DNA from: Deltaproteobacteria bacterium HGW-Deltaproteobacteria-18
Lineage (GTDB): Bacteria; Desulfobacterota; Desulfovibrionia; Desulfovibrionales; Desulfomicrobiaceae
Direction: 5' to 3'
Assembly (NCBI GenBank): GCA_002841885.1
Contig: PHBE01000004.1
Span: forward strand, 1 to 64,000
Length of the DNA: 64,000 bases
This document shows, piece by piece, positions 27,255 through 38,032 of the stretch. Within the stretch, counting starts at the first letter, position 1; every line of letters starts with the position of its first letter. The notes under the pieces are model-generated. The model worked only from the letters and a program-made list of their open reading frames with translations. It made no database searches and had not been told where the DNA came from. A program made the translations under genes and the position numbers.

Positions 27255-27616
27255 GGATGGAGTGACCAACCGGCAGAAAAACAGGACGGAATCGACCTGG
27301 CATGGGGGCGCGCCGATCAAACATCATAAAAAAGGAACTGATGCTCTGGGCACAAAATAACTTTGAAAAACAATTAAACGATCTATTCAAGCCCATTGCA
27401 TGCATTTTGAGTCATGAAACATTGTTTTCCGGAAAAAATAAAAATAATAAACGTTGACATTAAATTCGGCGCCACCTAGTGACTACTGACTTTGGCGGAA
27501 ATGAAATCCTGAATTCAAGACTGAATCCACTTTCATTGTTTCGCAATCCTGTCGGTAGCTGTTTTCCGCAGGAACAGAGTTTTTCTTTTTACTTTTTTTT
27601 CTTTGGAGTTACTGTC
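27255..27616. other. Long leader region of the RRM gene
   Basis: No gene is supported in these 362 bases. The first third is AT-rich. A promoter candidate lies at 27454-27482, after which there would be about 135 untranslated bases, including a pyrimidine-rich tract (tttttctttttactttttttcttt) directly ahead of the GGAG ribosome site at 27605. Long leaders of this sort are common for cold-inducible or autoregulated RNA-binding protein genes. Confidence 0.45.
27454..27482 (+). promoter_or_regulatory. Candidate sigma-70 promoter of the RRM gene
   Basis: TTGACA at 27454-27459 is a perfect -35 box; 17 bases later lies TAGTGA (27477-27482), a poor but possible -10 box. The spacing is ideal. Confidence 0.45.
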
Positions 27617-27892
27617 TTGTCTAAGAACATCTATGTTGGAAATTTGTCCTGGTCGACCACTGATGCAGATCTGCACGCCATGTTTTCCCAGTACGGTCAG
27701 GTCAGCTCTGCCCACGTCATTGAAGATCGTGAAACCGGTCGTTCCCGTGGCTTCGGCTTCGTGGAAATGGATGACGAAGGTGCACGCAAGTCCATCCAGG
27801 CGCTGAACGGAACCGACTGCCAGGGCCGCAACCTGAAGGTCAACGAAGCGCAGCCCCGTGAAAGCCGCTCCGATAGCCGTTCACGCTACTAA
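27617..27892 (+). CDS. RRM-type RNA-binding protein
   Basis: A 91-residue single-RRM protein resembling bacterial and cyanobacterial glycine-poor Rbp proteins. RNP2 is IYVGNL at residues 4-9 and RNP1 is RGFGFVEM near residue 43. The short tail is serine/arginine-rich (RESRSDSRSRY). It should bind single-stranded RNA. The most likely start is a TTG at 27617, with GGAG 8 bases upstream and the N-terminus MSKNIYVGNL matching the family. A strong terminator follows, so the gene is monocistronic. It lies between a sensor kinase and a response regulator but probably has its own regulation. Confidence 0.92.
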   Translation: MSKNIYVGNLSWSTTDADLHAMFSQYGQVSSAHVIEDRETGRSRGFGFVEMDDEGARKSIQALNGTDCQGRNLKVNEAQPRESRSDSRSRY

Positions 27893-28776: not shown

Positions 28777-28890
28777 CCACTCACGATATATTCATGATAA
28801 CCAGCAAGTATAAATGTCGGCACCAAATTGAAAACTCGCGGTGTGCAGGCAATCCATGTTGATCCCATAGTACCTTTCACAGGAGGGAGT

Positions 28891-29367
28891 ATGACCCGGA
28901 AAAAAGATGCATCCAGCGGACGGGGATGGCGGTTCGCCCTGCCTCCGGCCATAGCGGGCATCGTGGTCACGGTTGGGGCGGCGCTGGCCATGACCGCGAC
29001 GGACCAGGCCAGTTTCTGCGGCAGTTGCCATTCGATGGCGGAAGCAGCCTTTACGCACAAGACGTCGGTCCACGCCGAACTGGCCTGCAACGAATGCCAC
29101 GCGCCGCACAATCTGGCGGCCAAGATCCCGTTCAAGACCAAGGAAGGCACCCGGGACATCCTGGCCACGGTGACAAAGACCATCCCTGACCTCATTCATC
29201 CGGGCGAGGAAACCAGGGAAGTGACCCAGGAAAACTGTCAGCGTTGCCACGGTGCGACGACTTCCACGGTTGTTATGCAAAGCAAGAAGTTCTGCACCGA
29301 TTGCCACCGCCACGTGCCCCATTCTCCCAAAATCCCCGTAGCCAAAAGGAGTGCCGCCGATGCGTAA
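28891..29367 (+). CDS. nrfH: Cytochrome c nitrite reductase small subunit NrfH
   Basis: A 158-residue membrane-anchored tetraheme cytochrome. One N-terminal helix (about residues 15-36) is followed by four CxxCH motifs: CGSCH (with a following SM, matching the Met-ligated first heme of NrfH), CNECH, CQRCH and CTDCH. NrfH oxidises menaquinol and passes electrons to NrfA. The start is set by an AGGAGG-type site (aggagggagt) directly ahead of the ATG. The stop overlaps the nrfA start, indicating coupled translation. Length and heme count match the NapC/NirT family members that partner NrfA. Confidence 0.95.
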   Translation: MTRKKDASSGRGWRFALPPAIAGIVVTVGAALAMTATDQASFCGSCHSMAEAAFTHKTSVHAELACNECHAPHNLAAKIPFKTKEGTRDILATVTKTIPDLIHPGEETREVTQENCQRCHGATTSTVVMQSKKFCTDCHRHVPHSPKIPVAKRSAADA

Positions 29368-30922
29368 CACCCGATCCCTTATTGCCCTGCTGGCCGTGGG
29401 CTGCGCCCTGGCCTTGAGTGCTTGTTCCGAAGCCACCGAACCGAAAGCTCCGGAATTCAAGACCAAACTCAAATCCGACGAGATCAAGAACTCCGCCTTC
29501 AAGGCTGAATTTCCGCTCCATTATGAAACATTCCTGCGCAACAACGAGTCCGAGATCATGACCGAGTACGGGGGATCTGTCGCCTACAACAAGCACGACA
29601 ACGTAAATCCCCTGCCCGAAGGCTACAAGCACGCCCAGCCCTACCTGAAGAACCTCTGGCTCGGCTACGCGTTCAGCTACGAATACAAGGCAGCACGCGG
29701 ACATACCTACGCCATCAAGGACATCCTGCACATCGACCGTCTGAACCGCTACGACGAGAAGGCCGGACTGCCCGCCACTTGCTGGAACTGCAAGACCGCC
29801 AAGATGAACGAATGGGTCGGGGAGTACGGCGACGAATTCTGGGCCAAGGATTTCAACCAGTTCCGCGAACAGATTGATATGGACGACAACACCATTGGCT
29901 GCGCCAACTGCCACGACCCGGCCAACATGGAACTGCGCCTGTACTCCGTACCCCTGCAGGACCACTTGAAGGCAGAGGGCAAAGACTTCAAGACCCTCTC
30001 CCGCAACGAACAGCGCGCGCTCATGTGCGGCCAGTGTCATGTGGAATACTACTTCACGGACAAGGGCCAGGGCACGCCCAAGAAGCCCGTCTTCCCCTGG
30101 GCTGAGGGCAAGGACCCCGAGCAGATTTACGCCTATTACAAAGGCCACGGCGACACCACCATCCCCGGCTTCGAAGGAAACTTCGTGGATTGGGTTCATC
30201 CCGTGTCCAAGACCCCCATGCTCAAGGCCCAGCACCCTGAGTACGAAACCTGGTATAATGGCGTGCATGGTGCGGCCGGTGTCAGCTGCGCCGACTGCCA
30301 CATGAGCTACACCCGTCTCGACGGCAAGAAGAAGATGTCCAACCATCACTGGAACTCGCCCCTGAAAGACCCGGACATGAAGGCCTGCCGCCAGTGCCAT
30401 ACGGACAAGAGCCCCGAGTATCTGAAGCAGCGGGTCATCTACACCCAGGACAAGGTCTGGGAGCAGCTCATGGCCGCCCAGGACATCTCGGTCAAGGCGC
30501 ATGAGGCAATTCGCATGGCCGATGAATTCCAGGGCGAAAAACCGGCAGATTACGCCCAGCTCATGATCGATGCCCGCGAAATGTGCCGCAAGGGCCAGTT
30601 CTTCTGGGACTACGTCTCCGCCGAGAACAGCGTCGGCTTCCACAACCCGGCCAAGGCCCTGGACACCCTGGCCAAGTCCCAGCAGTTCAGCCAGAAGGCC
30701 GTGGACATCGCCATCAAGGCGGCGGCCTTCACCACGGCCCAGGCCCTGTCCGGGGACATCAAGGATCTGGTGCCGCCCATCATGAAGCACAGCCGCGAAC
30801 TGCAGATGAATCCCGAGCACATGGCCAGCCACCAGTGGCTCAAGTATCTCAAAGTCAACCCAAAGGCCGAAAAGATCTGGGAAGGCAACAAGCGCCTTAT
30901 CCCGGCTCCTGCCGCCAGCTAG
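29360..30922 (+). CDS. nrfA: Cytochrome c nitrite reductase catalytic subunit NrfA
   Basis: A 520-residue pentaheme enzyme that reduces nitrite to ammonium by six electrons, and can also reduce sulfite and NO. The N-terminus is a lipoprotein signal with lipobox LSAC. Heme 1 uses the characteristic CWNCK motif near residue 140, where Lys ligates the active-site iron. Four CxxCH motifs follow: CANCH, CGQCH, CADCH and CRQCH. The start at 29360 lies 8 bases after AAGGAG and inside the last codons of nrfH. A strong terminator follows, so nrfHA forms a two-gene operon. The lipid anchor is as seen in sulfate-reducer NrfHA complexes. Confidence 0.96.
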   Translation: MRNTRSLIALLAVGCALALSACSEATEPKAPEFKTKLKSDEIKNSAFKAEFPLHYETFLRNNESEIMTEYGGSVAYNKHDNVNPLPEGYKHAQPYLKNLWLGYAFSYEYKAARGHTYAIKDILHIDRLNRYDEKAGLPATCWNCKTAKMNEWVGEYGDEFWAKDFNQFREQIDMDDNTIGCANCHDPANMELRLYSVPLQDHLKAEGKDFKTLSRNEQRALMCGQCHVEYYFTDKGQGTPKKPVFPWAEGKDPEQIYAYYKGHGDTTIPGFEGNFVDWVHPVSKTPMLKAQHPEYETWYNGVHGAAGVSCADCHMSYTRLDGKKKMSNHHWNSPLKDPDMKACRQCHTDKSPEYLKQRVIYTQDKVWEQLMAAQDISVKAHEAIRMADEFQGEKPADYAQLMIDAREMCRKGQFFWDYVSAENSVGFHNPAKALDTLAKSQQFSQKAVDIAIKAAAFTTAQALSGDIKDLVPPIMKHSRELQMNPEHMASHQWLKYLKVNPKAEKIWEGNKRLIPAPAAS

Positions 30923-30983: not shown

Positions 30984-31133
30984 GCCTCCCGATTTCACTG
31001 GCAAACTATTTCCCTCATTGATTGATGAAATATCGCCAAGGACCTTGTCCTTTCGATTCCATTTAAATATGGTAAAGCTATCCGTCTTGGAAAGAACTAT
31101 CGTTATCATCAATACAAGCCACGGAGGTCAGTG

Positions 31134-31850
31134 ATGGGAGAAGAATTGGCGGCAGGCTGCACCAGACCAACAGCTGATGTGGAGCAGACGCCGGAAGAAA
31201 CCGTTCAACCAGCAACACCAGTCCAAGGAGCACGCCCCATGATCCAGGTAGGAAAGAAAGCCCCCGACTTCTCGGCCCCGGCCTATTTCAACGGCGGGTT
31301 CACCAACGTCAGGCTGTCCGAATTCCTCGGGAAATGGGTGGTCCTGTGCTTTTATCCAGGTGATTTCACCTTTGTCTGAGCGACCGAAATCTCGGCGGTC
31401 GCCGAGAAGCACGCGGAGTTCGAAAAGCTGGGCGTTCAGGTCCTGTCCATGAGCACGGACAGCATGTTCGTGCACAAGATGTGGGTCGACGACGAACTTT
31501 CAAAGATGATCACGGCAAAGACCGTGCCCTTCCCCATGCTGTCCGACGGCGGCGGCAGGGTGGGCAGCATGTACGGCATCTATGACGAGGCCGGCGGCGT
31601 GGACGTGCGCGGCCGTTTCCTCATCGACCCGGACGGCAACGTACAGGCCTATGAGGTGCTTACTCCTCCGGTAGGCCGCAACGTAAACGAAACCTTGCGC
31701 CAGATTCAAGCCTTCCAGCTGGTGCGCGAGAGCAAGGGCACCAAGGCCACCCCATCCGGCTGGAGGCCCGGCAAGCCGGTTCTGAGCCCCGGCCCGGGCC
31801 TGGTCGGCAAAGTCTGGGAAGTCTGGACCGTGGACAAGGCCTTCGACTAG
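31134..31850 (+). CDS. Selenocysteine-containing peroxiredoxin (in-frame UGA)
   Basis: The frame reads through a TGA at 31377-31379. On both sides the protein is a continuous AhpC/Prx-family peroxiredoxin: before it [14 protein letters not shown] and YPGDFTFV, after it [18 protein letters not shown] and [12 protein letters not shown]. The TGA stands exactly where the peroxidatic Cys lies (TFVCxT motif), so the residue is probably selenocysteine (U82). The protein of about 238 residues reduces H2O2 or organic peroxides. ATG 31134 has GGAGG 6 bases upstream; a second ATG at 31239 with AAGGAG 8 bases upstream would give a conventional 203-residue form. The C-terminal CPSGW-like site reads TPSGW, so the usual resolving Cys is absent. 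Confidence 0.88.
31377..31406 (+). promoter_or_regulatory. UGA selenocysteine codon with bacterial SECIS-like hairpin
   Basis: Immediately after the TGA (31377-31379), ctcggc (31391-31396) and gccgag (31401-31406) form a perfect 6-bp stem with loop GGUC, 18-21 bases beyond the UGA. The E. coli fdhF SECIS also presents a GGUC-type apical loop at a similar distance, where SelB binds. An alternative 7-bp pairing (31380-31386 with 31396-31402) is possible. Confidence 0.75.
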
Positions 31851-32402: not shown

Positions 32403-33110
32403 ATGAACATTGACCTTCTTCACGAATCCACGCCCAGTCGGGCCGATCGCGCCAGGGCCAGTCTCCTTCAAGCCGGGTTGCAGTGCTTCGCCGATCGGGG
32501 CCTGGATGGCGTGACCATTCGGGAAATCGCCCGGGTCGCGGGGCAGAACTCCGCGGCCATCACGTATTACTTCGGCGGCAAGGAGGGCCTGTACGGCGCC
32601 GTGCTGGACGCGGTGATGCGCTTCTTCCGCAACCATGTGCACGAGGCCCGGCAGGCCTGGGAATCCCTGAACGAAGCGGACACGAAACCCGAACAGGCAG
32701 TGGCGTTGCTCAAACGCATCCAGCGCAGCTTCGCGCTGGGCATTCTGACCGACGCCAAGGCCGCCCAGTTCGCCATGCTCATGGTCCGGGAGCAGACCCA
32801 GCCCACGGCCGCCTTCGAAGCCCTCTACCGTGACACCGTGGAACCGCTGCACTGCATGATCTCGCGCATTCTGGCCCGAATCACGGGCGACGAGCCGGAG
32901 TCACCCCGCGCAGTGCTCCGGGCTCACGCCCTCATCGGCCAGTTGCAATCCTTTGTCATGGCGCGGGAAACCCTGCTTCGGCGCATGGATTGGAATGCGT
33001 ACGATGCTTCCCGCGCGGCCGAAGTGGCCAACATGCTGGCCGAGAATCTCGACATCTTCGTGGCCGGACTGAACGCCCAAGCTGAACCTCAACCGGAATA
33101 TCCATCGTGA
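32403..33110 (+). CDS. TetR-family regulator, CecR (YbiH)-like
   Basis: A 235-residue regulator. The N-terminal TetR helix-turn-helix is visible at residues 15-62 (RASLLQAGLQCFADRGLDGVTIREIARVAGQNSAAITYYFGGKEGLY). The C-terminal ligand-binding part (MLMVREQTQPTAAFEALYRDTVEPLH) resembles the CecR/YbiH type. In E. coli, YbiH heads the ybhGFSR export operon; here the same gene order follows with overlapping starts, supporting the assignment. The tandem operator just upstream suggests autoregulation. The inducer is unknown. The ribosome site is weak, and the stop overlaps the GTG of the next gene. Confidence 0.85.
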   Translation: MNIDLLHESTPSRADRARASLLQAGLQCFADRGLDGVTIREIARVAGQNSAAITYYFGGKEGLYGAVLDAVMRFFRNHVHEARQAWESLNEADTKPEQAVALLKRIQRSFALGILTDAKAAQFAMLMVREQTQPTAAFEALYRDTVEPLHCMISRILARITGDEPESPRAVLRAHALIGQLQSFVMARETLLRRMDWNAYDASRAAEVANMLAENLDIFVAGLNAQAEPQPEYPS

Positions 33111-34084
33111 AACGCATCCTTGTATTTTTTCTTCTCCTGGCCACGGTCGCCGGCGGCTGGTACCTGTGGCACACCCAGCGCGCCGCGCACAACAACACAC
33201 CGCCTGTCTTCCACGGCAACGTCGACATCCGCGAAGTGCGACTCGGATTCAGGGTCAGCGGAAAAGTCCGGGAAGTTTTAAAGGAAGAAGGAGACGAGGT
33301 CAGGGCAGGCGAAGTCGTGGCCAGGCTCGATGCCGAACCTTTTCAGAACGCCGTTGATCAGGCCGAGGCCGAGACCCGCGTGATAGAGGCCCGGCTGATG
33401 GAACTGCGCAGCGGTGCACGCCCCGAAGATATCGAGCAGGCCCGCAAAAACCTGGCGGCAACCGAGGCCACATACGAGAACGCCCGCCTCATCTTCGAAC
33501 GCCAGAGTCAGCTCGTCGCCAGCGGAGCCGTTGCCAGGCAGGATTTCGACACCGCACGGTCCACGTTTGAAGCGGCCAGGGCCAGAAGGGGCAGCGCAAA
33601 GGCTGCCCTCGATCTGCTCCTGGCAGGAACGCGCGCCGAACAGATCAGGCAGGCCGAGGCCAGCCTGGAGGCCGCCCGCGCAGCACTGTCCCAGGCCCTC
33701 ACGCAACTTGCCGACACGGTGCTCACCGCACCCGAGGCGGGCGTGGCCCTGACCAGGGTCGTGGAACCGGGCAGCATCGTGCAGGCCGGAAGCACGGCGC
33801 TCACCGTAAGCCTTGATTCTCCCGTTCGCGTCCGGGCCTATGCGCCCGAACCGCAGCTTGGCCTCGTTCATCCCGGCCGCAAGGTGCTGGTCTTCACCGA
33901 TTCCCGCTCGGAACCCTACCAAGGTCAAATCGGAGACGTCTCGCCACGGGCGGAGTTCACGCCCAAATCCGTGGAAACCGAAGAACTGCGCACGGCGCTG
34001 GTCTATCGTTTCCGGGTGGTCGTGCTGGACGCGGACCAAGGACTCCGGCAGGGCATGCCCGTCACCGTGAAGCTGGCGGACTGA
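33107..34084 (+). CDS. ybhG: HlyD-family membrane fusion protein, YbhG-like
   Basis: A 325-residue periplasmic adaptor with an N-terminal membrane anchor (residues 3-19). A barrel-sandwich half follows (VDIREVRLGFRVSGKVREVL), then a long alpha-helical hairpin (about residues 80-200) and the second half (TVLTAPEAGVALTRVVEPGSIVQAG). It links the ABC-2 exporter to the outer membrane. It begins with GTG in a GTGA overlap with the regulator stop and is 2 bases from the ATPase gene. The closest match in layout is YbhG. Confidence 0.85.
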   Translation: MKRILVFFLLLATVAGGWYLWHTQRAAHNNTPPVFHGNVDIREVRLGFRVSGKVREVLKEEGDEVRAGEVVARLDAEPFQNAVDQAEAETRVIEARLMELRSGARPEDIEQARKNLAATEATYENARLIFERQSQLVASGAVARQDFDTARSTFEAARARRGSAKAALDLLLAGTRAEQIRQAEASLEAARAALSQALTQLADTVLTAPEAGVALTRVVEPGSIVQAGSTALTVSLDSPVRVRAYAPEPQLGLVHPGRKVLVFTDSRSEPYQGQIGDVSPRAEFTPKSVETEELRTALVYRFRVVVLDADQGLRQGMPVTVKLAD

Positions 34085-34086
34085 AC

Positions 34087-35799
34087 ATGGCCGCAGTCAG
34101 CCTCATTGAAGTCGGCAAATCCTTCCCCGGTCTGGACACACCCGCTCTTGCCGGCATCTCGGGCTCCATCGAATCCGGAATCATCACCGGCATCGCCGGA
34201 CCCGACGGCGCAGGCAAGACAACCCTCATGCGTCTCATGGCCGGATTGCTACGCCCCGACAGCGGCACCCTGACGGTGCTCGGCCGGGAACCCGTGGCCG
34301 CTCCAGAACTACGTCTGCGAGTGGGCTACATGCCGCAGCAATTCGGCCTCTACGAAGATCTTACGGTCATGGAAAACCTGACCCTGCATGCGGACCTGCG
34401 CGACGTAACCGGAGAGGAGCGCGAGAAAACCTTCGCACGACTTCTGGCCTTCACCGATCTGCAGAAGTTCACGAAACGCCTGGCCGGACGGCTCTCGGGC
34501 GGCATGAAGCAAAAACTCGGCCTGGCCTGCGCCCTGCTTGGCACGCCGGAACTGCTCCTGCTCGACGAACCCGGAGTCGGAGTCGACCCCATCTCCCGTC
34601 GCGAACTGTGGAAAATGGTACACGAACTCGCCGACCAGGGCATCGCCGTGGTCTGGAGCACATCCTACCTCGACGAGGCGGAAGCGTGCGACGAGGTGTT
34701 CCTGCTCAGCGAGGGGAGCCTGCTTTTCTCCGGCAAGCCGGGCGACCTCACCAGCCGTCTGCGGGGACGCTGCCTGCACCTTGGCGGCGTGGAAGGACGC
34801 AGACGGCAGGCGCTGGCGACCCTGCTCCGCCAACCGGAAGTCAGCGACGGAGTCATCCAGGGACAAAACCTGCGCGTCGTCTTGAAAGACGGCGCTGCCC
34901 GTCCCGATCCCCAGGCTCTCGATATCCCCGGCCCGGTCCAATGGAAGGAGGTCTCCCCTCGCTTCGAGGACGCCTTCATCGACCTGCTCGGCGGCGGTCC
35001 GGGGGGAGAGTCCGCCCTGGCCGCGTCCATGCAGCCGCGGCCCGAAATCCGCGAAAGCCTGATCATGGCCGAAGATCTCACAAAAACCTTCGGCGACTTC
35101 ACGGCCACGGACCATGTCAGCTTCGAGGTCAGGCAAGGGGAAATCTTCGGACTCCTGGGACCCAACGGGGCGGGCAAATCCACCACCTTCAAGATGATGT
35201 GCGGCCTGCTCAAACCCACCTCCGGGCGGGCCGAAGTCATGGGCATCGACCTGCGCCACAGCCCGGCCAGGGCCAGGGAACGTCTGGGCTACATGGCCCA
35301 GAAATTCTCCCTCTATGGCAAGCTCACCGTACGCCGGAATCTCGAATTCTTTTCCGGGGTGTATGGGCTCTCGCGGACCCGGCAACGGCAGGCCGTGGAG
35401 TCGATGATCGAGTCCTTCCATCTGAAGCAGTTCCTGGGCGTCACCACGGACGACCTGTCCCTTGGTTACAAGCAGCGCCTCGCCCTGGCCTGCGCCGCCA
35501 TGCACGAGCCGGACATCCTTTTTCTCGATGAACCGACCTCGGGCGTCGATCCCCTGACCCGCCGCGAGTTCTGGAATCACATCAACGGCGTTGTGGAAAA
35601 AGGGGTCACGGTAATGGTCACCACCCATTTCATGGACGAAGCCGAATACTGCGACCGCATCGGCCTGGTCTATCACGGCAAGCTCATCGCCCTGGCTCCG
35701 CCGGACGACCTGAAGGCCCAGGTGGCCTCCACCGCCCTGCCCGACCCAACCATGGAAGACGCCTTCATCGAACTCATACACAGACAGGAGGCCACGTGA
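34087..35799 (+). CDS. ybhF: Fused double ABC ATPase, YbhF-like
   Basis: A 570-residue protein with two complete ABC nucleotide-binding domains in tandem. Domain 1 (residues 1-230) has GPDGAGKTTLMRL, signature LSGGMKQKLGL and LLLDEPGVGVDP. Domain 2 (from about residue 325) has GPNGAGKSTTFKM, signature LSLGYKQRLAL and LFLDEPTSGVDP. Both Walker sites look functional. It powers the two permeases encoded next. YbhFSR-type systems are linked to drug and cation efflux in E. coli; the natural substrate here is not known. Its stop overlaps the GTG start of the first permease. Confidence 0.9.
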   Translation: MAAVSLIEVGKSFPGLDTPALAGISGSIESGIITGIAGPDGAGKTTLMRLMAGLLRPDSGTLTVLGREPVAAPELRLRVGYMPQQFGLYEDLTVMENLTLHADLRDVTGEEREKTFARLLAFTDLQKFTKRLAGRLSGGMKQKLGLACALLGTPELLLLDEPGVGVDPISRRELWKMVHELADQGIAVVWSTSYLDEAEACDEVFLLSEGSLLFSGKPGDLTSRLRGRCLHLGGVEGRRRQALATLLRQPEVSDGVIQGQNLRVVLKDGAARPDPQALDIPGPVQWKEVSPRFEDAFIDLLGGGPGGESALAASMQPRPEIRESLIMAEDLTKTFGDFTATDHVSFEVRQGEIFGLLGPNGAGKSTTFKMMCGLLKPTSGRAEVMGIDLRHSPARARERLGYMAQKFSLYGKLTVRRNLEFFSGVYGLSRTRQRQAVESMIESFHLKQFLGVTTDDLSLGYKQRLALACAAMHEPDILFLDEPTSGVDPLTRREFWNHINGVVEKGVTVMVTTHFMDEAEYCDRIGLVYHGKLIALAPPDDLKAQVASTALPDPTMEDAFIELIHRQEAT

Positions 35800-36923
35800 A
35801 ATCCGTATCCTTGCGAAGGCTCTCCGCCCTGTGCATCAAGGAAACCCGGCAAATTCTGCGCGACCCGAGCAGCGGCGTCATCGCCTTCATCCTGCCCATG
35901 ATTCTGCTCGTCATCTTCGGCTACGGCCTCAACCTGGACACCACCCGCCTGCGCATGGGCCTGTGCGACGAGGACGGAGGGCCGGCTGCGGCTTCATTCG
36001 TGGCGAAGCTGACAGGCTCGACCTATTTCGAAATACATCCCGGCAGCCGCGCCGAACTCGACGCCCTGCTCGAAACCGGGGCCATCCGGGGCTACACGGT
36101 CCTGGCTCAGGATTTTTCCCGCATCGTGGACCAGGGCCGGGAAACGGCGCCCATCCAGGTCATCACCGACGGAGCCGAACCGAACACGGCAAATTTCGTG
36201 GCTGCGTTCATGAAGAACGTTTGGCAGGAGTGGCTTCTCACCAGAGCCAAGGATCAGGGCCGGGAAGCCGTCCAGGGCGCAAGGCTGGAGGTCCGGTACT
36301 GGTACAACGCGGCGGCCATAAGCAGGCACTATCTCATCCCCGGTTCCATCACCATCATCATGACCGTCATCGGCGCCATGCTGACGTCCCTGGTCGTCGC
36401 CCGCGAATGGGAACGCGGGACCATGGAAGCCCTGCTGGCTTCTCCGGTGACCAGGACCGAACTGCTGCTCTCCAAGCTCCTGCCCTATTACGTGCTGGGC
36501 ATGATCTCCATGTCCGTGGTGGCCCTGAGCGCCGTGCACCTCATGGGAGTGCCCTTCCGGGGCTCGGTGGGCGCGCTCGTCCTGGTCACGACGGTCTTCC
36601 TGCTCAGCATGCTCGGCATCGGTCTTCTGATCTCCTCGGTCATGCGCAACCAGTTCGACAGCGCCCAGACCACCCTGAACGTGGCCTTCCTCCCCGCCGT
36701 CATGCTCTCGGGTGCGTTCTTCGTCATCGCCAGCATGCCCGCGACCGTGCGCGCCCTGACCTATCTGCTGCCGCCGCGCTATCTGGTAAGCTCCCTGCAG
36801 ACCATCTTCCTGGCCGGTGACGTCTGGGAAATCCTGCTCCCCGACATCCTCTTCCTGACGGGCACGAGCGTTCTCTTTCTGGCCCTGACCGCACGCAAGA
36901 CCGTACGGAGGCTGGACGCATGA
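35796..36923 (+). CDS. ybhS: ABC-2 type permease, YbhS-like
   Basis: A 375-residue ABC-2 permease with one N-terminal helix (about residues 25-45, GVIAFILPMILLVIFGYGL), a large periplasmic loop of about 130 residues and five C-terminal helices. The conserved EWERGTMEALLASPVTRTELLLSKLLPYYVLG motif sits near residue 205. It probably forms a heterodimer with the next protein. Start GTG overlaps the ATPase stop (GTGA) and the stop overlaps the next ATG. Confidence 0.88.
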   Translation: MKSVSLRRLSALCIKETRQILRDPSSGVIAFILPMILLVIFGYGLNLDTTRLRMGLCDEDGGPAAASFVAKLTGSTYFEIHPGSRAELDALLETGAIRGYTVLAQDFSRIVDQGRETAPIQVITDGAEPNTANFVAAFMKNVWQEWLLTRAKDQGREAVQGARLEVRYWYNAAAISRHYLIPGSITIIMTVIGAMLTSLVVAREWERGTMEALLASPVTRTELLLSKLLPYYVLGMISMSVVALSAVHLMGVPFRGSVGALVLVTTVFLLSMLGIGLLISSVMRNQFDSAQTTLNVAFLPAVMLSGAFFVIASMPATVRALTYLLPPRYLVSSLQTIFLAGDVWEILLPDILFLTGTSVLFLALTARKTVRRLDA

Positions 36924-38032
36924 TCTGGCTGCGCCGCATCCTGGCCCTCATCAGAAAGGAGCTGCAGATTCTTCTGGCCGATCCGCAAAGCCGCAAGCTT
37001 GTGGTCATCCCAGTCCTCATGCAGGTGATCCTCTTCCCCCTGGCCGCCACCCTTGAAGTGAAGAACAACACCCTGGCCGTGCTGAACGAGGACGGGGGCG
37101 CGTCTTCGGTGGAACTGATCCAGCGCTTCGCCAGCGCCCGGGCCTTCACCGAAATCATCCACCTGTCCGGAGCGGGGCAGATCGAAAGGACACTGGACAA
37201 CCAGGAGGCCATCGCGGTGGTCCGCTTCGGGCCGGACTTCTCGCGCAAGGCGGCGGCAGGCCTCCCCGCTCCGATGCAGCTGCTCCTCGACGGCCGACGC
37301 TCCAACAGCAGCCAGATCGCGGCCAGCTATATCCAGGACATCACCACCCAGTATTTCAATGAACAAAACCTGGCCGCAGGGCACCCCCCTGCGTCGGAAC
37401 TGGTCATCCGCCATCGCTACAACCCGAACCTCGAATACCAGTGGTTCATCCTTCCGAGCCTCGTGGCCATCATCCTGACCGTGAGCGCACTCATCCTGAC
37501 CGCCTTGTCCGTGGCCAGGGAACGGGAACAGGGGACCCTGGACCAGCTCCTGGTATCCCCCCTGACCCCGGAAATGATCATGATCGGCAAGGCCTCGGCC
37601 GTGCTGATGGTAGGCCTGTTCCAGGCCACGGTCATTATCGTGGCCGCCATCTTCGTGTACAAGGTACCCCTGTCGGGCTCCCTTGCCCTCATCTACGCCA
37701 GCAGCGTGCTCTACTTCGCGGCCCTGGTCGGCGTCGGCTTCTTCATCAGCGCCATTTGCGCCACCCAGCAGCAGGCCTTTCTCGGGGCTTTTGCCTTCAT
37801 CATGCCGGCCATCCTGCTCTCGGGTTATGCCTCGCCGGTCGAGAACATGCCCCAGTGGCTGCAGACCGCCACCTGGATCAATCCCATCCGGCATTTCATC
37901 GTCATCGTGAAAAGCATCTTCCTCAAAGACGTCTCAGCCGCCTTCGTACTGGAAAGCGCCATCCCGCTGCTGGTCATCGCGGCGGGGACACTGACCATCG
38001 CGGTGATCATCTTCCGCAGGCGATTCGGCTAG
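36920..38032 (+). CDS. ybhR: ABC-2 type permease, YbhR-like
   Basis: A 370-residue ABC-2 permease with the same topology as the preceding protein: N-terminal helix (LVVIPVLMQVILFPLAATLEV), periplasmic loop, then five helices with REREQGTLDQLLVSPLTPEMIMIGKASAVL near residue 197. It starts in an ATGA overlap and ends the five-gene operon. Just past the stop, gtccgc and gcggac (38032-38049) make a short hairpin without a clear T tract. Confidence 0.88.
   Translation: MIWLRRILALIRKELQILLADPQSRKLVVIPVLMQVILFPLAATLEVKNNTLAVLNEDGGASSVELIQRFASARAFTEIIHLSGAGQIERTLDNQEAIAVVRFGPDFSRKAAAGLPAPMQLLLDGRRSNSSQIAASYIQDITTQYFNEQNLAAGHPPASELVIRHRYNPNLEYQWFILPSLVAIILTVSALILTALSVAREREQGTLDQLLVSPLTPEMIMIGKASAVLMVGLFQATVIIVAAIFVYKVPLSGSLALIYASSVLYFAALVGVGFFISAICATQQQAFLGAFAFIMPAILLSGYASPVENMPQWLQTATWINPIRHFIVIVKSIFLKDVSAAFVLESAIPLLVIAAGTLTIAVIIFRRRFG

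Follow-up and report, generated by a model that had tools for sequence, protein, structure and literature searches.

Two apparent starts and a candidate N-terminal resolving cysteine in a bacterial prxU selenocysteine-peroxiredoxin gene

A peroxiredoxin frame interrupted by UGA

A reading frame on the forward strand of the 64-kb stretch of DNA analysed here (the window) carries a TGA codon at its catalytic position. The frame opens with an ATG (Met1, 31134..31136), preceded by a Shine-Dalgarno sequence (GGAGGT, 31123..31128), and extends in frame 1 to a TAG, covering positions 31134-31850. A single TGA (codon 82, 31377..31379) is its sole interruption, and the read-through product has 238 residues. 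Both halves form one continuous alignment to Prx1-class peroxiredoxins (4fh8_A, E=2.3e-44, residues 39-220), in which the peroxidatic Cys of the FTFVCPTE motif is aligned with the TGA codon. Frame and alignment thus agree with an earlier note on this DNA, which had described two peroxiredoxin halves in one frame, split only by a TGA at the catalytic position.

Family searches placed the protein more precisely. The 238-residue read-through protein matches PF00578 (AhpC/TSA) with 130 bits. With selenocysteine (Sec) scored as Cys, it matches the NCBIfam model NF040737 (peroxi_PrxU) with 406.1 bits against a curated cut-off of 270, residues 7-234 aligning with positions 2-232 of the 233 in the profile. 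The AhpC equivalog TIGR03137 gave 172.2 bits, under its cut-off of 272, which leaves the protein outside that equivalog. PHROGs gave two matches, a weak one (E=8.5e-12) to a phage family without known function and another to a phage peroxiredoxin. The two best named matches, among the matches listed, come from Desulfomicrobium MAGs with 91 and 88% identity, and the host is accordingly taken to be a Desulfomicrobium-like sulfate reducer. TGA stands at the equivalent of codon 82, with no further stop, in all 80 named homologues (the best 80 of 578 confirmed stretches). The profile search exceeded the PrxU cut-off in 130 of 395 genomes of the phylum and in none of the 14 control genomes.

Judged by its sequence, 31134-31850 is prxU, the gene of a selenocysteine peroxiredoxin, and its product belongs to a kind of selenoprotein already known. 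PrxU is said to be the selenocysteine peroxiredoxin of Eubacterium acidaminophilum, reportedly the work of Soehling and colleagues in 2001; the window gene shares with it, and with NF040737, a Prx1-type protein whose active site, TxxU, has Sec as the peroxidatic residue. Sec-peroxiredoxins have been predicted in other Deltaproteobacteria (PMC1794560), one is given for Desulfococcus multivorans (dmul_C20060/70; PMC5109826), and those of Deltaproteobacteria appear in a review table (PMC13188914). The first two of these accounts concern the same group and likewise Sec in a peroxiredoxin, and give presence, numbers or evolutionary events.

The predicted structure of the protein (mean pLDDT 84) has a well-modelled core with the Prx1 fold (5zte_A, TMt 0.88), and structure comparison gave a best Z of 23.1 to Prx1 enzymes over about residues 34-232 of the model. 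The N-terminal extension is not confidently placed, residues 1-30 having low block means of pLDDT (61, 56 and 41). Compared with typical 2-Cys Prx1/AhpC enzymes (4fh8, 5zte, Salmonella AhpC), the protein shares the predicted fold and the FTFVxxTE motif, but it differs from them in having Sec for the peroxidatic Cys, Thr206 for the resolving Cys and an extension that carries Cys9.

The hairpin and the selenocysteine machinery

Bacterial SECIS elements are hairpins just 3' of the UGA with a G in the loop, and the prxU transcript has a hairpin of this kind at 31390..31407 on the forward strand. Its stem of 7 bp (31390-31396/31401-31407) is closed by the loop GGUC (31397-31400). The perfect stem and the GGUC loop had been noticed before, with a span of 12-27 nt after the UGA; both are present, though the span is 11-28 nt past the last UGA base. 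Folding energy alone is unconvincing (z -1.35, with 13 of 200 shuffles folding at least equally well), and a search of the whole window against Rfam gave no match at any family's gathering score.

The support comes from covariation and from the conservation of the loop. In 79 distinct sequences, 99.3% of the stem cells are paired, against 91.4 +/- 0.5 in shuffles, and 55 cells are changed on both sides, against 16.6 in shuffles; the pairing figure and the double-change figure were each matched by 0 of 500 shuffles. The outer bases of the loop (columns 21/24) are A-U in 44 of these 79 sequences and G-C in the other 35, with zero exceptions, which suggests that they pair and close a two-base GU loop when bound. 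We then compared forms with and without Sec among 149 proteins, which are the 150 matches listed from the 395 phylum genomes minus the fragment L256 and which take in six loci outside the strict motif. Of the TGA forms, 133 of 138 have AGUU or GGUC as the loop, which none of the 11 Cys forms has; 6 or more of the 7 stem pairs are formed in 130 of 138 TGA forms against 2 of 11 Cys forms. Since most TGA forms keep loop and stem and few or none of the Cys forms have them, the hairpin tracks the Sec codon and not the protein sequence alone. One genome (G282) has an extension-bearing paralogue (L139) with Cys (TGC) in place of Sec and a decayed hairpin (4 of 7 pairs, loop CTTG), and retains the TGA form alongside it. 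At two other loci (L031 and L057), a change from Glu to Asp (GAT) opposite GTA preserves the outer hairpin pair as A-U, so that the choice of residue here seems to follow the needs of the RNA.

The genome was also searched for the machinery that Sec insertion requires, in an assembly of 3.99 Mb and 37 contigs rated 99.97% complete. A tRNA-Sec was found with 86.3 bits (gathering score 47), and ARAGORN gave it the anticodon TCA. A second match to the model was much weaker (47.9 bits against the cut-off of 47), and sub-threshold matches occurred in 14 of 14 control genomes; for these reasons only the top match was counted. SelA (623.8 bits), SelB (366.5 bits) and SelD (327.1 bits) all exceed their curated cut-offs, so that selA, selB, selC and selD, which the earlier note had predicted, are all present in the genome. 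The 64-kb window itself holds no tRNA genes. The SelD gene (L098, G000:C23:27995-28912) has a single in-frame TGA of its own, and the SelD of this genome is probably a selenoprotein as well.

UGA 31377 is almost certainly decoded as Sec, and the proposal that this is a Sec peroxiredoxin gains support from the NF040737 membership, the machinery and the covarying, SECIS-like hairpin. SelB and tRNA-Sec would decode the codon, guided by the hairpin downstream, and Sec would be the peroxidatic residue of a peroxidase with the Prx1 fold. A pseudogene or a sequencing error that put TGA in place of a Cys codon is refuted in practice: TGA is one base away from TGC and TGT, but every one of the 80 named homologues compared (the best 80 of 578) has it, the hairpin covaries and the Sec machinery is complete.

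Two apparent starts in one reading frame

The frame holds a second candidate start. An internal Shine-Dalgarno sequence, AAGGAG (31225..31230, forward strand), lies 8 nt upstream of the ATG at 31239, which is Met36 and at which the extension of about 35 residues ends. The predicted short form (31239..31850, forward strand) would have 203 residues with Sec at position 47, and the relatives that consist of the core only start at the position of Met36. In-frame internal starts that give two isoforms are known in bacterial genes such as those for IF2, ClpB and CheA. Like them, prxU has a second in-frame Shine-Dalgarno sequence and ATG; it differs in being a selenoenzyme whose predicted forms are distinguished by a conserved Cys.

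To explore how far this arrangement is conserved, Shine-Dalgarno sequences were scored by the number of bases matching the consensus. At least 6 such bases occur 4-11 nt ahead of the core Met in 71 of the 79 loci parsed (the window and the best 80 of 578, leaving out L062 and L077). By locus, at least 6 bases were found at the core Met in 72 of 81 (the window and the best 80 of 578 named) and, in a second collection, in 95 of 107 genes among the matches listed; the two collections may share species. The controls were much lower: of 452 Met codons lying downstream in these genes, 11 had at least 6 matching bases, and when the codons of the linker were shuffled, 6 bases were attained in 1701 of 37600 shuffles. 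Genes with no recognisable internal Shine-Dalgarno sequence numbered 2 of 107 and 1 of 81 (among the matches listed). The core start codon is ATG in all 188 extension-bearing genes that have Met there, and a single gene of 189 (L221) lacks Met at this place (both among the matches listed).

The conservation is also seen at the level of the nucleotides. The internal Shine-Dalgarno sequence falls in three codon frames (147, 15 and 4 cases among the matches listed), and as a result the same bases read KE in most genes and QG in the window gene. Where KE stands directly before Met, Lys is AAG in 114 of 118 and Glu is GAG in 115 of 118 cases; where KE occurs elsewhere in the genes, each of these codons is used in 25 of 58 (among the matches listed). 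Third-position entropy drops to 1.10 bits at codon -5 and 0.74 bits at codon -4 from 1.62-1.91 at codons -10 to -6, and the collapse of third-position variation is confined to codons -5 and -4. The RNA near the internal Met is predicted to be less structured than the downstream gene (-3.9 against -7.8 kcal/mol), a difference that may merely mirror base composition (G+C 0.45 against 0.49).

In the motif of the extension, CARPTGGPVGE, first and second codon positions are conserved and third positions are free, the entropy at codons +1 to +9 from the Cys being 0.05-1.29 bits at first and second positions and 1.77-1.98 bits at third positions. The first start has a Shine-Dalgarno sequence of at least 6 bases in 151 of 183 genes, and in 6 more the first start was not found (among the matches listed). 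The extension's own Shine-Dalgarno sequence, its conserved residues and its free third positions all argue that it is translated and under selection at the protein level.

From these patterns of conservation we conclude that selection keeps both starts. Two isoforms of 238 and 203 residues are thus likely to be made in cells. The two masses of about 26 and about 22 kDa named in the earlier note now look like more than a doubt about annotation, since both starts look functional.

It could also be argued that Met1 is the single start, the internal site being either a relic of a core-only ancestor that was later joined to the extension or a place where the ribosome pauses for folding or Sec insertion. 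The core-only members do begin at the same place, and the extension-bearing genes lie mostly in one part of the tree (4 changes). We nevertheless regard this as improbable, because the site persists in 72 of 81 and 95 of 107 genes (among the matches listed), in various codon frames, although the linker around it is nearly saturated; a relic should decay, as it has in L221, which lacks the Met. This argument bears on the relic, and the site may still act as a pause. Much less probable still is that Met36 is the sole real start and the 35 upstream codons are untranslated: the strong Shine-Dalgarno sequence at Met36 and the 203 residues, the usual length of a Prx1 core, would suit this idea, but the 151 of 183 genes with a good first Shine-Dalgarno sequence (among the matches listed) and the conserved residues with free third positions in the extension speak against it.

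Candidate resolving cysteines and gene neighbourhood

Typical Prx1 enzymes complete their cycle through a C-terminal Cys in the motif VCP. The window gene lacks it, having Thr206 (31749..31751) at this site (ATPSGW for VCPAGW in the alignment). Two other cysteines were identified from the homologue alignment as candidates for the resolving residue: Cys9 (31158..31160), the invariant Cys of the extension in the motif GCxRP, and Cys72 (31347..31349), a conserved Cys ten residues before Sec; all three codons are on the forward strand.

The Cys of the GCxRP motif is present in all 80 named homologues (the best 80 of 578), and its column is invariant in the 62 aligned sequences, a protein alignment of 62 of the 81 loci. 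Of the 149 proteins described above, 109 have the extension with Cys9. In this count L151, whose Cys lies ahead of the start codon, was scored by hand as lacking the extension, and L166, divergent and with a signal-peptide-like N-terminus, and L133, with a TAG in frame, were taken as extension-bearing. A Cys in the C-terminal tail is found in only 12 of the 109 members with the extension against 36 of the 40 without it (among the matches listed). By type, the tail Cys among those with the extension is absent in 97, classical in 6, GKVC in 2 and other in 4; among those without it, 19 are classical, 11 GKVC and 6 PCGW, and 4 have none (among the matches listed). Two genes that nest among the extension-bearing ones (L239 and L240) have no extension and do have the classical C-terminal Cys. 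On a tree of 102 of the 149 proteins, the exchange between Cys9 and the tail Cys amounts to 2-3 supported independent contrasts and is not significant, because independent changes are few. A well-supported clade of PrxU paralogues (L154, L156, L254 and L255) keeps the TGA and the hairpin with the active site FYGGDYTFVU; these have neither extension nor tail Cys, and Tyr stands in place of Cys72.

That Cys9 is the resolving residue replacing the missing C-terminal Cys is a tentative assignment, a little short of an even chance. The extension is not placed in the predicted model, so that no argument can be drawn from the distance between Cys9 and Sec. The 12 members with both the extension and a tail Cys, and the four with neither, count against it. 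The distribution of Cys72 fits the pattern equally well: 108 of the 109 extension-bearing members have it, against 9 of the 40 others (among the matches listed), and so do all 80 named homologues (the best 80 of 578). Cys72 may accordingly resolve the oxidised Sec, leaving the extension for oligomerisation, partner binding or localisation; the N-terminal extension of human Prx4, with its Cys51, may serve such roles, and Prx4 C51A structures are among the structure matches of the predicted model. We consider this unlikely, as the 9 of 40 members without extension that have Cys72 (among the matches listed) also retain a tail Cys, and as Cys72 lies in strand 68-74 of the predicted core. Because this strand precedes the helix carrying Sec in the model, a direct bond between Cys72 and Sec appears doubtful.

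The whole explanation that we favour, with a probability of roughly two in three, is that both starts are translated, that Cys9 of the long form, in the least certain of these steps, replaces the C-terminal resolving Cys, and that the product is a Sec peroxidase. In such a cycle, a hydroperoxide would oxidise Sec82; in the long form, Cys9 of the same or a neighbouring subunit would attack the selenenic acid to give an Se-S bond, and a thioredoxin-type reductant would open this bond and restore Sec. The short form of 203 residues, without Cys9, would be either a one-Sec enzyme dependent on an external thiol or a partner of the long form in mixed oligomers.

A broader proposal, more tentative than the assignment of Cys9, is that one gene yields two enzymes, a long one with an N-terminal resolving Cys and a short one-Sec enzyme. 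Its internal start would be shared by sulfate reducers and by MAGs that bear the labels of several other phyla, the resolving residue would have moved among at least four sites (VCP at the C-terminus, PCGW, GKVC and the N-terminal extension) around a fixed Sec site, and the ratio of the starts would set recycling or the oligomer. With its resolving Cys at changing places, the family would offer a natural series for asking what a selenoperoxidase needs for its recycling. Use of both starts would mean that anaerobes have a selenium enzyme in two forms that differ by one conserved Cys, that a ribosome-binding site hidden within the coding sequence sets the two forms, and that the annotation of prxU, in which hundreds of genes are already split at the UGA, also overlooks half of the products. 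The selenoprotein itself is one more case of a curated family. A search of open-licence papers, which is no proof of absence, found no mention for PrxU of a start inside the gene or of a resolving Cys at the N-terminus; within this limit, we think that a conserved internal start, together with a Cys that may have been relocated, sets this gene apart as an undescribed variant.

Finally, the genes around prxU were compared among loci. Directly upstream are two cytochrome c nitrite reductase genes on the forward strand, an nrfH-like one (28828-29367, PF03264) and an nrfA-like one (29351-30922, PF02335, 414 bits). The nrfA homologue scores far under the NCBIfam NrfA equivalog cut-offs (280.5 of 595 bits), which would suit a distinct subtype. 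Downstream, on the same strand, 32403-38032 encodes an efflux set made up of a TetR/CecR-type regulator, an HlyD-family adaptor, a fused double ABC ATPase resembling part of RbbA and two ABC-2 type permeases. Among the flanking frames of the 81 loci (the window and the best 80 of 578), the most widely shared clusters were Fur-family proteins (8), proteins with the metallo-beta-lactamase fold (7) and pyridine-nucleotide oxidoreductases (6). A conserved gene context for prxU was rejected, as the top shared cluster covers just 8 of these 81 loci, and nrfHA is absent from the clusters shared among them. The neighbours not being common to other loci, prxU is not tied to nrfHA or to the efflux set. 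Further upstream, a frame at 27479-27892 on the forward strand resembles, in its second part (from KNIYVGNLSW) and as judged by eye, a bacterial RNA-recognition-motif protein.
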